DNA of 34,051 nucleotides from Acidobacteria bacterium RIFCSPLOWO2_02_FULL_67_21 (GTDB lineage: Bacteria; Acidobacteriota; Vicinamibacteria; Vicinamibacterales; UBA2999): NCBI GenBank assembly GCA_001767195.1, contig MEKU01000002.1, positions 6,900 through 40,950 on the forward strand, given 5' to 3'. Positions 367 through 28,742 of this stretch are shown piece by piece. How positions within the stretch are numbered: the stretch's first letter is position 1; each line of letters starts with the position of its first letter. The position numbers and the translations under genes are program-made. Under the pieces are notes generated by a model, which was not told the DNA's origin, ran no database searches, and was given only the letters and a program-made list of their open reading frames with translations.

Positions 367-3300
367 TCACACACGGCTGACCTCCCGGGCGGCTCGCACG
401 CGCGCCGCCAGCTTTTCCGCGGTCGAATAGTACAGGTCGTTCCAGCGGCAGCCGTCGAACTCGGGGCCGCCCTTGAAGTCGGTCCGCTCATCGAGAGATC
501 CCTCGCCAGGACAGCCCCAGAACCAGGGGAATTCCTCGCTGGGGCGAATGCTCTTCGGCTCGGTGCCGCGGTCCTTCCTCCAGGTGATATTGGGTTTCCA
601 CCGAAGAATGCCGGAGCCGGCGCGGCCGCCCTTTCGCAGCGCCACCGACATGAACGGCCGGATGTTGATCCTGACGCCGTCATTGATATCGGGATCCCAG
701 CCGACGGGTTGCTCGTGTAGCGGCTTCCATCGCACGAAGATGTCGTACGGCGGTTCACCGGCGAGAATGCGTTCGAGCTGAGCCTGCAGATCCAGGGCTG
801 CGGCCAAACGACCATCGGCGCCGTCCTTGCCGTCTCGCTGATCGGCCTTCTGCCGTTCGATCCAGTCTCCGAGATAGCTGTACGTCAGGGCTTCCATCGT
901 GCGCCGGCCCTCGCCATTGGGGCCGGCGAGCTTGTCGTAGTTGACCAACGCATGAAAGCCGTCCGGACGACCATCCCAGATGTGCCAGATGAACGGGACA
1001 TCGTGAAAGAGCCTGCAGTGCTCCTGGAAGAAATCGTTCCTCAGCCAGTCATCGAGGTCTCGGTCGGGCTTCAGTGCGCAGGCTGACAGAAGCGCCAACA
1101 GCCGATCGGCCGCTGGCTTTTCGCCACGAACGCTCGGAATACAGACGATGCCATCGTTATCCGCAAATTCAGCGAGTTCGCCGCATCGCTCAACGAGGCC
1201 CCTCGCCCGTGTGCTAAGGCGCATACTCGGGTCCAACTCGGCCGGCCAACGAATTCCAAGCAGTCGAATAACAGCAACCTGCATCGGCGCGTCAGAGTGC
1301 TCGGGGCGCCCATGGAATACCCACTGCGATGGGTCATTGCTTTCTGGTTCTGGCCGTCCGGTCGCGAACGCGTGCTCAGCCCCAAGCCGCCAACGCTGAA
1401 TGTCGAAGGGAACCTTGCTGACATAGCCATTGTTGACGCTCAGCTTGGAGTTCACCTTCCGCAACTCACCACGAAAGCTCGATGAACTCACGAATAGCCA
1501 CAACGCTCCCAAGTCGCGCTCGTGCCTTGGGACGATGACAGGGCTTGAGTCTGCGAACAGCTCACCAGAATAAAGAGTCGCAGGCAGCGCGCTAACCTGT
1601 CCGATCGCGATGCCCAGCTTTCCCCAGGCGTTCCGGCCTCGAAGGGCGGCACCGATCGTCCCGCTAGAGAGAGTTAACCAGTCGATGATGGCTTCACGGC
1701 CGGCGAAGTCACTGGTCTTTGCCGGCGGGCCTTGGAATAACCTCCACCGGTTTCGAAGGGAGTCCAGCTCCCAGAACGACCGCGCAAACCTCGGGGCGTC
1801 CGTCGATGACAGGCCCTGGTAACAATCGGAAAAATGGCCTAGCGTGCGGTCCGAGCCGATGGGCTCCGACAAGATCGCGGCATCCTGGTTCGTCAGCTGA
1901 TCTGATTGCAGAACCACGCGGACAGCCGATGCAGCAGGGCCGGTCAAAGCAGCTGCCTTGTCAGCAGCCCTCCGCTGCGCCGCCACGTCAATATCCGCCA
2001 TCTTTGCGCTCTCGGGCGGAACGCCGGCGGTGAGGGCGAGCAGCGCGACATTTACTCGTTCTCCGGAAATCGTCTCGAACGCCCGAGGGCCAAGTCTGGC
2101 AACGAGATTCCACTGGTCTGTTCTGAGTGACCTTTCACGAAGGGTGGCGTACGTCGTCAGGAACAGCCAGTTCTGGGGTGTGACAAGTGCGGCCGTGCTG
2201 CCCTTTCGACAAAACGACAAGCAGCGAATGACAAAGGCGGTCGCCAAGTCAGACTTACCCGCCGCGTAGTGCTCTTCGATGTGTGTCTTCAGGTCCTCGC
2301 CTTGGTTCCCGCTACCAAGGTACGGGACATTCGTAATGACAAGTGTGTACTGCCCCGCCAGCACCTCAGCCGCCATCGCCAACCCCTGTGCGGCGACGCC
2401 CATTTCATTGCGTTCCGGCGCGCCCTCGGTGCTCGCTACGGCCGCCCCGAGAGCGGCCAGCAGAGCATCGGTGCCCTTCCGATCGAGCATCCCACCGCCC
2501 TGGAATCGGCGCGGATCGATGAGGCTGCCGAGCGAAGGCGCCTTGGAAAAGAGGTCGTACAGCTGGCCGAATGCGAAGCGCGGTGACGACTCGGTCCCTT
2601 CGCCAAGCAGCCCAAGCCACTCATCCCGCGTTCCGCCAACAGACTGCCCCGAGCAACTGATATTGAGCGGCGGCAAGTCAATCGGTTGGCCCAAGAGCTT
2701 CCACGCGGCCAGCGCCAGATTGAACGCAGCGATCTGCGTGCAGCGCGCGTCGATCTCGAGACCGAAGAGGTTCTCCGCGAGAACGCCGCGAATCGCCTCG
2801 TCGACCGAAAGTCCCTCCTCTTCCATGCGGAGGCGAACGAGCAGCTCGAAGCCCTCGACCAGGAAGTGCCCGCTGCCGCAGCACGGATCGAGCACCTTCA
2901 GCTCGGCGGCGTGCGCCGGCCAGCCGTCGAACGTTCCCGCAGCCGGTCGCCACGGTCCGCTTGGCGTCTCGTCGGCATCGGCGTCAGCATCACGGTCCGG
3001 CTGAAGCCGGACACTACGTACGCTGGTATCGCCCTCGACACGCTCACGGACGAATCGCAAATACGAGAAGTCGTACCCGCCCTGTGCCGACAACCGAACC
3101 GCGCGGCGGAGTTCCTCTTCGTCACGCGCATTTCTGGCGAGCTCAGGACTCGCCGCCAGCATCCTGCCGGCCCGCCAGGCACCGATGGTGTTGTGAAAGA
3201 GGAAGAGCACCATGTAGTGCTCAGTGAAGAGCTGCGTGACAGCCGGCAGTTCGTCAGCGCCGATCTTGACGCCGGAACGGTTGACATCGTCCTTCCTCTC

Positions 3301-24876: not shown

Positions 24877-25424
24877 TGGCACACGACGCACCTGCGGTCA
24901 CGCTGCACGGCCTGATGGCCGAGTTCGATACGCCGACGGCGCTCGTCCATGCGGCCGAACGGGCGCGCCTCGAAGGGTACCGGGAGATGGACGCCTACTC
25001 GCCGATTCCGGTCGAGGAGCTGTCCGAAGCGCTCGGGCTCCGGCGCACGCGCCTCCCGAGGCTCGTGTTCGCGGGCGGCATCCTCGGCGGCCTGGCGGGG
25101 TACGGGCTCGAATACTGGTCCCAGGCGATTGCCTACCCGTTGAACATCGGCGGCCGGCCGTACCACAGCTGGCCGCACTTCATTCCGGTCACCTTCGAGA
25201 CGACCGTCCTCGGGGCGGCGCTGGCGGCCTTCATCGGCATGTGGGCGCTCAACAGGCTTCCGCAGCCGTATCACCCGGTGTTCAACGTGCCGGCGTTTGC
25301 CCGGGCGTCGGTGGACCGGTTCTTTCTCTGTATCGAGGCGACCGACCCGAAGTTCGATCGCCATGCCACGTGGAAGTTCCTCGAGAGCCTCCACCCGGTA
25401 GGAGTCGCTGAAGTTGCGCCCTAA
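24876..25424 (+). CDS. actD: alternative complex III subunit ActD (DUF3341)
   Basis: LHGLMAEFDTPTALVHAAERARLEGYREMDAYSPIPVEELSEALGL; ATGA overlap with actC. Confidence 0.9.
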
Positions 25425-26103
25425 TCAGAACTCCCAATTCCGCAACTCCCAACTCCCAAGGGGTCTTGGGCGTTGGTCTTTTGGGCGGTGGGAGTGTGCC
25501 GCCATTCTGCTCTGTGTGCTGGCGGCCGGCTGCCGGCAGGACATGCACGACGCGCCCCGGTACGATCCGCTCGAGGCGAGCCCGTTCTTCCGCGACGGCC
25601 GCAGCGCGCGCTCGCTCGTCACGAACACCGTCGCCCGCGGTGGTCTGCGCGAGGACGACCACCTGTACCAGGGCAAGGTCGACGGGCAGCTCACCGACAC
25701 CTTCCCGATGCCGGTCACCGCCGAGCTGCTGGCGCGTGGCCGGGAGCGGTTCAACGTCTTCTGCGCGCCGTGCCACGGCCGCACGGGACAGGGCAACGGG
25801 ATGGTCGTGCAGCGCGGCTTCCGCGCGCCGCCGTCCTACCATGAGCAGCGGCTGCGCAACGCCCCTGCCGGGTACTTCTTCGATGTCATGACCAACGGGT
25901 TTGGCGCCATGTCCGACTATGCGGCCCAGGTGCCGGTCGCGGACCGCTGGGCGATTTCCGCCTACATCCGCGCCCTGCAGCTCAGTCAGCGCGCGACCGT
26001 CGACGACGTCCCGGTCGATCGCCGGCCGGAGCTGGACCAGGCGCCTGAGGTGAGGCTCCCGCCTGGACGGCCCGAGACCCCGCCGGCGCCGGAGGCACGA
26101 TAG
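25414..26103 (+). CDS. actE: alternative complex III monoheme cytochrome c lipoprotein ActE
   Basis: TTG start overlapping actD; lipobox LAAGC; heme site FCAPCHGRTGQGNGMV. Confidence 0.88.
   Translation: MRPNQNSQFRNSQLPRGLGRWSFGRWECAAILLCVLAAGCRQDMHDAPRYDPLEASPFFRDGRSARSLVTNTVARGGLREDDHLYQGKVDGQLTDTFPMPVTAELLARGRERFNVFCAPCHGRTGQGNGMVVQRGFRAPPSYHEQRLRNAPAGYFFDVMTNGFGAMSDYAAQVPVADRWAISAYIRALQLSQRATVDDVPVDRRPELDQAPEVRLPPGRPETPPAPEAR
25429..25496. repeat. 7-bp-periodic inverted repeat at the start of actE
   Basis: Left AACTCCC-AATTCCG-C-AACTCCC-AACTCCC-AAG, loop GGGT, right CTTGGGC-GTTGGTC-TTTTGGG-CGGTGGG-AGTG; perfect core CCCAAG/CTTGGG. Confidence 0.7.
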
Positions 26104-27320
26104 TGGCCGAGACGACCTACGCCCCGCCCGCTGATATCGATGCGCTGCGTTCGCGCGCGCTCATCGCCGGCGCCGCCGGCCTCGTCGCCTGCGGCATCGG
26201 ATTCATCGTGGACCGCGATCACTTCTTCCGTTCATGGCTCATTGCCTACCTGCTGTTCCTCGGGATCGCGCTCGGATCGATGGGGCTGCTGATGATCCAG
26301 CATCTGTCGGGCGGCGCGTGGGGCGTCTTCCGGCGGATCTTCGAGGCGTCGAGCCGGACGCTGCCGCTGCTGGCGATTCTCTTCCTGCCGATCGTGCTCG
26401 GCATGGGGACGCTCTACTCGTGGACGCACCCGGAGCACGTGCAGGCCGACGAAGTCCTGCAGCACAAGGCCGTCTACCTCAACACCGGGTTCTTCCTGCT
26501 GCGGGCGTTCATCTACTTCGCCGGCTGGATCCTGATCGCCTGGACGATGACGCGCTGGTCGCGGCGGCAGGACGAGGGCGACATGAGCGTGAACCTGCGC
26601 CTCCAGTACCTGAGCGGAGGCGGGATCGTGTTCTACGCGTTTGCCGCCACGTTTGCCGGCATCGACTGGGTGATGTCGATCAACCCGCACTGGTTCTCCA
26701 CGCTCTTCGGGTTCATCTTCATCGGCGGCCACGGCCTCGCCGCGCTGTCGTTTACGATCGTGATCAGCGCGTTCCTCGTGCGGCGCGCGCCGATGGAGCA
26801 GATCCTCAAGCCGGGCCATTTCCACGACCTCGGCAAGCTCTCGCTGGCGTTCGTCATGCTCTGGGCGTACTTCAACTTCTCCCAGTACATGCTGGTCTAC
26901 GCGGCCAACCTGGTCGAGGAGGTTCCGTACTTCGTCGCCCGGATCAGCCACGGATGGCAGTTCCTGGCGATCTTCCTCGTGCTGTTCCAGTTCGCGGTGC
27001 CCTTCCTGCTGCTGCTCTCGCGCGATCTCAAGCGGATGCCCCACCGGCTGGTGTGGGTGTCGCTGGCGCTGCTGCTGGTCCGCTACATCGATCTCTTCAT
27101 GCTCGTCTCGCCCGAGTTCGCGTCGACCGGCGCGAACCTCCACATGCTGGAGGGCGAGCACGCGTCGGGGTTCTTCGTTCACTGGCTCGACCTGGCCGCC
27201 CCGCTGGCGGTGGGCGGGTTGTGGCTCTGGATGTTTCTGACCCAGCTGGCGCAGCGGCCGCTGGTGGCGTTCGCGGACCCGTACCTGCGCGAGGCGCTGC
27301 AAAGCTCGGGAGGCCACTGA
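26103..27320 (+). CDS. actF: alternative complex III NrfD-like membrane subunit ActF
   Basis: 405 aa polytopic protein, GTG start, downstream of actE. Confidence 0.88.
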   Translation: MAETTYAPPADIDALRSRALIAGAAGLVACGIGFIVDRDHFFRSWLIAYLLFLGIALGSMGLLMIQHLSGGAWGVFRRIFEASSRTLPLLAILFLPIVLGMGTLYSWTHPEHVQADEVLQHKAVYLNTGFFLLRAFIYFAGWILIAWTMTRWSRRQDEGDMSVNLRLQYLSGGGIVFYAFAATFAGIDWVMSINPHWFSTLFGFIFIGGHGLAALSFTIVISAFLVRRAPMEQILKPGHFHDLGKLSLAFVMLWAYFNFSQYMLVYAANLVEEVPYFVARISHGWQFLAIFLVLFQFAVPFLLLLSRDLKRMPHRLVWVSLALLLVRYIDLFMLVSPEFASTGANLHMLEGEHASGFFVHWLDLAAPLAVGGLWLWMFLTQLAQRPLVAFADPYLREALQSSGGH

Positions 27321-27826
27321 TGGCGCATGACGACCCGGTAGGACACGCCTCGGCAGACGACGAGTATCTGGCGACGCCGCCCGACTCGACCTACGAGCAC
27401 ACCGACGCGCACGTCGGTCCGATCGTCAAGTTCATGGTCTGGCTCGCGGCGTCGGCGATCGTCATTCACATCGGCCTCGGCTTCATGTACGAGTTCCTGA
27501 TCCAGCAGTCGATGATCGCCGAGCAGCCGTACCCCCTGGCCACCGGCCAGGAGCCGCGCCTCCCGCCGGCGCCCCGGCTGCAGCAGTTTCCGCACAACGA
27601 GATCTACCAGTTCCGCCTGGACGAAGCGACGCTGATGGACCGGTACGGCTGGATGAACAAGGACGCCGGCATCGTGCATATTCCGATTGAGGAGGCGATG
27701 CGGCTCACCGTCGAGCGCGGGCTGCTGCAGACGCGGACACCGGACGCGGCGCAGCCGGCCGGCGTGCCGGGGCAGATGGCGTCCGACGCGAGCTCGGGCC
27801 GGACGATGGAGCGGCGGAGGCAGTAG
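27320..27826 (+). CDS. single-TM protein of the ACIII cluster, unknown function
   Basis: MAHDDPVGHASADDEYLATPPDSTYEHTDAHVGPIVKFMVWLAASAIVIHIGLGFMYEFL; overlaps actF. Confidence 0.7.
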   Translation: MAHDDPVGHASADDEYLATPPDSTYEHTDAHVGPIVKFMVWLAASAIVIHIGLGFMYEFLIQQSMIAEQPYPLATGQEPRLPPAPRLQQFPHNEIYQFRLDEATLMDRYGWMNKDAGIVHIPIEEAMRLTVERGLLQTRTPDAAQPAGVPGQMASDASSGRTMERRRQ

Positions 27827-27832
27827 GACGGC

Positions 27833-27938
27833 AATGCTCAATGCTCAATGCTCAATGCTCAATGTCCAACGCGGCAGACGTGTGTGTGCGGTCGCCCTTT
27901 TGTCATTGGGCATTTGGCATTGGGCATTGGGCATTGAT
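27833..27938. repeat. 7-bp tandem inverted repeat covering the SCO1 start and signal peptide
   Basis: Left arm four perfect AATGCTC units plus AATGTCC (27833-27867); right arm CATTGGG/CATTTGG/CATTGGG/CATTGGG/CATTGAT (27904-27938); arms largely complementary, allowing G.U pairs. Confidence 0.85.
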
Positions 27939-28742
27939 GCGGCGGCCCAGGCCGGCTTCCCGAGCGGCTACGGCAGCACGCAGGAGCCGGGCATGGTGTC
28001 GACCGACGTGCCGCCCCAGCTCCGCGACGTGACGTTCAGGCAGCGGTTGAACGAGCGGCTGCCGCTCGATGCCGCGTTTCGCGACGAGAGCGGCCGGCCC
28101 GTGACGCTGGGCGACTACTTCGGCCGCCGGCCCGTCCTGCTGGCGTTTGTCTACTACAGCTGTCCGATGCTGTGCACGCAGGTGATGAACGGGCTGTCGA
28201 GCGCGCTCAAGGTCACGCCGTTCAAGGCGGGCGAGGATTTCGACGTCGTGCTCATCAGCTTCGACCCGCGCGACACGCCGGCGACGGCCGCGGAGAAGAA
28301 GCGCGCCCACCTGGAGTACTGGTCGGTCGAGCAGGATGCGGCGGCGTGGCACCTGCTGACCGGCGATGAGGCGACGATCCGGCGCGTGACGTCGGCGGCG
28401 GGATTCACCTACCGCTGGGACGAGCCGAGCGGGCAGTTCGCCCACGTGAGCGGCGTGCTGGTGGCCACCTCCGACGGCCGCCTGTCGCGCTACTTCTACG
28501 GCGTCGAGTACTCGCCGAAGGAGCTGCGGCTGGCGCTGGTCGAGTCGGGCGACGGCCGCGTCGGCTCGGCGATCGACGAGCTGCTCCTCTACTGCTTCCA
28601 CTACGACCCGGAGAGCGGCCGCTACGGGCTGATGGTGATGAATCTGGTGCGGCTCGCTGGTGTCATGACAGTACTGTTCATCGGCGGCTCGATCCTGCTG
28701 ATGCGCCGCCGCGACGCGCGCCCGCGGCTGGACCGGGCCTGA
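27834..28742 (+). CDS. SCO1/SenC family copper chaperone
   Basis: LAFVYYSCPMLCTQVMNGL copper-site motif; LISFDPRDTP; C-terminal TM helix; next to cytochrome oxidase genes. Confidence 0.92.
   Translation: MLNAQCSMLNVQRGRRVCAVALLSLGIWHWALGIDAAAQAGFPSGYGSTQEPGMVSTDVPPQLRDVTFRQRLNERLPLDAAFRDESGRPVTLGDYFGRRPVLLAFVYYSCPMLCTQVMNGLSSALKVTPFKAGEDFDVVLISFDPRDTPATAAEKKRAHLEYWSVEQDAAAWHLLTGDEATIRRVTSAAGFTYRWDEPSGQFAHVSGVLVATSDGRLSRYFYGVEYSPKELRLALVESGDGRVGSAIDELLLYCFHYDPESGRYGLMVMNLVRLAGVMTVLFIGGSILLMRRRDARPRLDRA

Follow-up and report, generated by a model that had tools for sequence, protein, structure and literature searches.

A paired inverted heptad repeat as the probable source of the start codon and signal peptide of an acidobacterial SCO1 gene

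Introduction

Rickettsia palindromic elements are palindromes inserted in frame within protein-coding genes, and phase-variable simple sequence repeats are short tandem units in or near the start of a gene. Heptameric repeats with the consensus sequences GGGNATC / GGGGA(C/T)T have been described in Xanthomonas and Nostoc (Rehm et al. 2015, PMC4692102); their units are 7-bp, G-rich, dispersed and mostly intergenic near open reading frames, and those of Xanthomonas include 70-75 convergent inverted pairs (PMC4692102); the main text of that paper makes no mention of 'signal peptide'. G-quadruplex formation in vitro is a further property of this type of repeat. The TAACTGA heptamers of marine Beggiatoaceae lie directly upstream of start codons, where a role in translation was proposed (MacGregor 2015, PMC4679880); they are direct repeats with one inverted case, and their forward units have stops in all frames (PMC4679880). 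Searches of the open-access literature yielded no account of heptads that act as signal peptides.

Here we report a paired inverted array of 7-bp units at the start of a SCO1 gene of Acidobacteria bacterium RIFCSPLOWO2_02_FULL_67_21, located in a window of 34,051 nucleotides (the whole stretch of DNA that was analysed; contig MEKU01000002.1, positions 6,900 to 40,950). Like the Xanthomonas/Nostoc repeats, the elements of this genome are 7-bp units that occur in many copies above chance, mostly in intergenic DNA near the ends of open reading frames. Their units (GGGCATT/GAGCATT and GGGAGTT) differ from the GGGNATC consensus and form a different family of the same kind; moreover, pairs predominate here, and there are copies whose translation looks like a signal peptide or that are inserted in frame. 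With inverted pairs of heptads already described from Xanthomonas, the element is of a known kind, with other units and in another phylum. In contrast to the Beggiatoaceae heptamers, the units are open in the frames used. The in-frame palindromic insertions (MetH and RimO by alignment, an ImuB-like gene by its reading) resemble Rickettsia palindromic elements, from which they differ in that the arms are heptad arrays with unit-level homology between copies and that the N-terminal captures read as leaders; given these unit-level arrays, homology to a known family of such elements is unlikely. The difference from phase-variable simple sequence repeats lies in the frame logic, which here buffers the reading frame and does not switch it.

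Results and discussion

The features around the start of the SCO1 gene are as follows.

27320..27826, + strand: upstream gene, 168 aa, no Pfam match; its stop TAG (27824-27826) ends 7 nt before ATG 27834
27825..27828, + strand: AGGA, possible Shine-Dalgarno motif by sequence and putative in function, 5 nt before ATG 27834
27834..28742, + strand: SCO1/SenC gene (Pfam PF02630), 302 aa from ATG 27834; alternative in-frame ATG 27855
27833..27867, + strand: left arm, (AATGCTC)4 + AATGTCC, encoding MLNAQCSMLNV (sequence, TRF, shuffle control)
27868..27898, + strand: spacer, encoding an Arg-rich segment and the first part of the hydrophobic core, approximately QRGRRVCAVAL (translation)
about 27899..27937, + strand: right arm of CATTGGG-type heptads, encoding SLGIWHWALGI, the hydrophobic core (sequence, TRF, folding)

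The left arm consists of four AATGCTC units (27833-27860) with AATGTCC adjoining at 27861-27867, as read directly from the sequence, and its ATGs (27834, 27841, 27848, 27855 and 27862) follow each other at 7 bp, exactly as given in the preliminary description; of the five, 27834 and 27855 alone share the reading frame of SCO1. The right arm reads CATTGGG, CATTTGG, CATTGGG, CATTGGG, CATTGAT at 27904-27938, with GG in place of GGG in one unit. That this arm encodes the hydrophobic SLGIWHWALGI, which had also been proposed, was confirmed by sequence and translation. TRF reported 4.7 copies for each arm, with 100% matches in the left and 92% in the right. A 21-nt query, (AATGCTC)3, with up to three mismatches had three matches, every one within the SCO1 array, and none in dinucleotide-preserving shuffles (0/100); by chance, no such left arm is expected.

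The SCO1 product matches Pfam PF02630 with an E-value of 1.6e-9, and the nearest named matches are from acidobacterial MAGs. Read from 27834, the N-terminus is MLNAQCSMLNVQRGRRVCAVALLSLGIWHWALGIDAAAQA|GFPSG. By inspection, MLNAQCSMLNVQRGRRVCAVALLSLGIWHWALGIDAAAQA has a positive n-region, a hydrophobic core and an A-x-A-like site, and orthologues have the same at the same place. The leader thus looks like a Sec-type signal peptide, and SCO1 would be exported through this repeat-encoded peptide. Because the orthologues carry a signal peptide at the same place, the gene appears to need the repeat-encoded N-terminus; what the preliminary description had named as evidence to the contrary, a start that is conserved, unrelated to the repeat and located downstream, was not found in them. 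From Shine-Dalgarno spacing and the orthologues, ATG 27834 is the probable start; besides the AGGA motif, a GGAGG (27816-27820) lies 13 nt before it. Pfam supports SCO1/SenC, a cytochrome c and CoxB in the window, and NCBIfam supports CoxA with a score slightly below the cut-off. By their order, the genes neighbouring SCO1 look like an alternative-complex-III operon.

Folding of the two arms as RNA yielded a 32-bp stem of 21 + 11 stacked pairs with -60.4 kcal/mol and a z-score of -7.21 against dinucleotide shuffles, the best of which was worse. All five left-arm ATGs lie inside the predicted stem, in agreement with the earlier suggestion that the arms can pair and that each candidate start would lie in a stem. 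Gating of SCO1 translation by this hairpin is plausible, and the stem could make translation of SCO1 conditional on ribosomes that complete the adjoining upstream gene, by translational coupling.

A 7-bp unit does not divide into whole codons, and three units make seven codons; a tandem heptad therefore yields the same heptapeptide whichever frame is read, and one free of stops stays open in each of them. The hydropathy of a heptad and that of its own reverse complement are negatively correlated (-0.72 across the 8,264 heptamers with no stop on either strand). The A/C-rich arm comes first in nearly all heptad pairs seen in this genome, so the reading order is polar, then hydrophobic. AATGCTC itself has a small polar/hydrophobic contrast, and its perfect complement has a stop, which the real right arm avoids by consisting mostly of GGGCATT. 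When the left arm was simulated with 1-7 units, or the right arm with -2 to +3, an in-frame, stop-free ATG was present in all cases. The arrangement therefore buffers the frame instead of switching it, and the proposal that a change in copy number by 7 bp shifts the reading frame, as in phase variation, is not supported. Gain or loss of units would still change the Shine-Dalgarno spacing and how the spacer is read, possibly with graded effects.

Across the genome, a degenerate heptad-doublet pattern gave 84 matches versus 29 with the reversed control, and a stricter AATGCYC doublet gave 38 versus 0. Tandem heptads of AATGCYC and of the sister units AACTCCC/GGGAGTT are present at approximately 45 loci, a count that covers the searched patterns only (pattern searches and sequence stretches). 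At most loci, a C-rich array is followed by a short spacer and then by its G-rich reverse complement, with an element size of ~60-135 bp including both arrays and the spacer. The two main unit families are AATGCYC and AACTCCC; a third is AAATCCC/TTTGGGA. The bulk of the elements occupy short intergenic gaps, often 1-16 nt from a start codon, as placed with a home-made gene caller, so that individual gene starts are approximate. At one locus (L042, ~3050-3110), a REP-like hairpin (GTAGTGCCGGGCTTCAGCCCGG...) is nested within the spacer of a heptad pair, and at another (L056), three genes are set apart by two elements, which flank an apparent ribosomal protein L20, one upstream and one immediately after it. 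A RAYT transposase was considered as mobiliser and rejected: the genome has two Y1_Tnp genes, and heptad arrays are absent from their fetched flanks.

Few elements lie within coding sequence; where they occupy an N-terminus, their translation resembles a signal peptide or membrane anchor. The window holds a second such element, which belongs to another unit family.

25414-26103, + strand: cytochrome c lipoprotein gene; likely start TTG 25414, AGGAG upstream
25429..25497, + strand: second element (AACTCCC/GGGCGTT family), within the N-terminal coding part of this gene

Its architecture is that of the SCO1 leader. Elsewhere in the genome, heptad arms of this architecture read as the leader MLNAQCLMPKPGARWALGIGHWALGIFCCAPVAAQ of an Omp85/BamA-like protein and as leaders of an SBP_bac_5 lipoprotein and of a small exported protein with a carboxypeptidase-regulatory match below the cut-off; N-terminal arms also read as a leader in a putative membrane protein without Pfam match. 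The preliminary description had proposed a test for enrichment at genes for exported proteins. Such enrichment is weakly supported: most copies are intergenic, and N-terminal captures are few. N-terminal captures were also recognised in part by their signal-peptide look, and an element before a cytosolic gene would count as intergenic, so that 'all N-terminal captures are exported' is no clean statistic. Four further genes have internal elements (MetH, L046; RimO, L071; an ImuB-like gene, L061; CysG, L044). Alignments of MetH and RimO with solved structures have in-frame extra residues at the element, the reading frame of the ImuB-like gene passes through it, and the element of CysG lies near a domain linker, where the poor alignment gives no clear sign of an insertion.

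Among 99 SCO1 loci, the signal-peptide region had period-7 DNA (threshold >=18/28) in ten, one of them a duplicate record (nine without it), and the gene body in none; shuffles gave 0. At control lags of 3-6 and 8-13, the same region was positive in 0-4 of the 99 loci, and at lag 14, the double period, in seven. The units vary between orthologues (TTTGGGC, TGGTGCC, AAGATTC/TTTTGCA, GAATTCA/CTGCATT, GGCAGTT/ACTGCCT), and the signal peptides finish with ..AQ directly ahead of the conserved core. The heptad label requires at least six changes on the SCO1 tree. Within one genus, the SCO1 leader is ordinary at L076 and built of TTTGGGC at L081; the latter, together with L074, L075 and L078, has one arm only, straight after the start codon. 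The leader in the cytochrome c slot likewise has period 7 at L104 and L117, and lipoproteins at L291 and L312 are likely further captures with the same architecture.

Two specific units occurred in 7/246 and 1/246 genomes, and AATGCYC doublets in 9/43 family members, being abundant in two; this rules out a single unit common to the phylum and indicates that unit families are largely genome-specific. In stretches totalling ~1 Mb and chosen irrespective of their repeat content, the first 120 nt of every gene stayed below the period-7 threshold. A survey of N-termini with a crude signal-peptide rule, which over-calls, had eight positives, all from SCO1 loci (seven SCO1, one cytochrome c). Given this near-absence among the other sampled genes, any one gene seldom undergoes capture, and within the clade the SCO1 slot looks like a hot spot.

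We consider it probable that a dispersed, intergenic, paired inverted heptad element was captured as the start and signal peptide of SCO1. The element straddles the translation start and would now serve as n-region and hydrophobic core. Such a capture would be feasible because heptads are frame-neutral, being open in three frames if stop-free, because the left arm supplies an ATG in each frame, and because polar codons, when reverse-complemented, tend to specify hydrophobic residues, so that arm, spacer and arm would read as polar, Arg-rich and hydrophobic, in the order of a signal peptide. The earlier proposal of a mobile repeat domesticated as a secretion signal is thereby retained in part: the genome-wide class, the orthologous leaders at the same place and the recurrence favour it, and its phase-variation component is dropped. 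The same capture with different 7-base units in relatives suggests that repeat DNA is reused for export signals; the arrays of unlike units could also stem from one array by descent with unit drift. None of the compared orthologues offered a clean empty site at SCO1. We regard as tentative, and on balance doubtful, the wider view that paired inverted heptads are a recurrent source of signal peptides in Acidobacteriota, with SCO1 leaders rebuilt repeatedly and the hairpin coupling translation to the upstream gene.

The heptads might instead have arisen by slippage within a pre-existing signal-peptide region and been retained as hydrophobic, with no capture of intergenic DNA. The single-arm arrays directly after the start codon and the differences in unit between species agree with such local expansion, which may apply to the single-arm orthologues. 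The array described here (G000), however, is two-armed, and its unit is common to many intergenic copies and the Omp85/BamA-like gene; since the unit is shared beyond SCO1, slippage at SCO1 alone would not yield this array, and we hold local expansion to be unlikely as its origin.

The remaining explanations are considerably weaker. A phase-variable locus toggling SCO1 by gain or loss of 7-bp units would have perfect tandem units, of a length indivisible by 3, where the gene begins, as is the case here, but the simulated arrays never lost their open start and phase variation was judged unlikely for the similar Xanthomonas/Nostoc heptads by their authors (PMC4692102); we consider it very improbable. 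Equally improbable is a purely intergenic element followed by a SCO1 start at ATG 27993 without signal peptide. Most copies are indeed intergenic, and a codon-based caller chose this start, but it would delete the signal peptide and the conserved residues before it that are present in orthologues, and the frame upstream of it has no stop and encodes what looks like a signal peptide, A-x-A site included. Signal peptides are biased in composition, and those rich in Leu, Gly and Trp might be periodic by themselves; chance or codon bias of this kind is hardly credible, given the excess at lag 7 over the neighbouring lags, the zero counts in gene body and shuffles, the near-complete lack of periodicity in other signal-peptide genes and the zero chance expectation for the left arm.

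Capture of a heptad pair at SCO1 would represent a concrete path, at the level of DNA, from non-coding repeats to secretion signals, with a simple rationale in frame-neutral 7-bp units whose inverted arms tend toward opposite hydropathy. For annotation, caution is warranted because start codons next to heptad arrays are ambiguous.

Repeats of other kinds were also encountered in relatives. Some sister genera (L313-L327 in G030, and L090-L102) have 8-bp repeats, e.g. GGTGATTG, some of which are interspersed with heptads; the G-arm precedes the other arm in G030. At L105, the signal-peptide region of the cytochrome c gene has a non-heptad inverted repeat, CACAAAGGACACCAAGG...CTTGGTGTCCTTTGTG, in the same slot.
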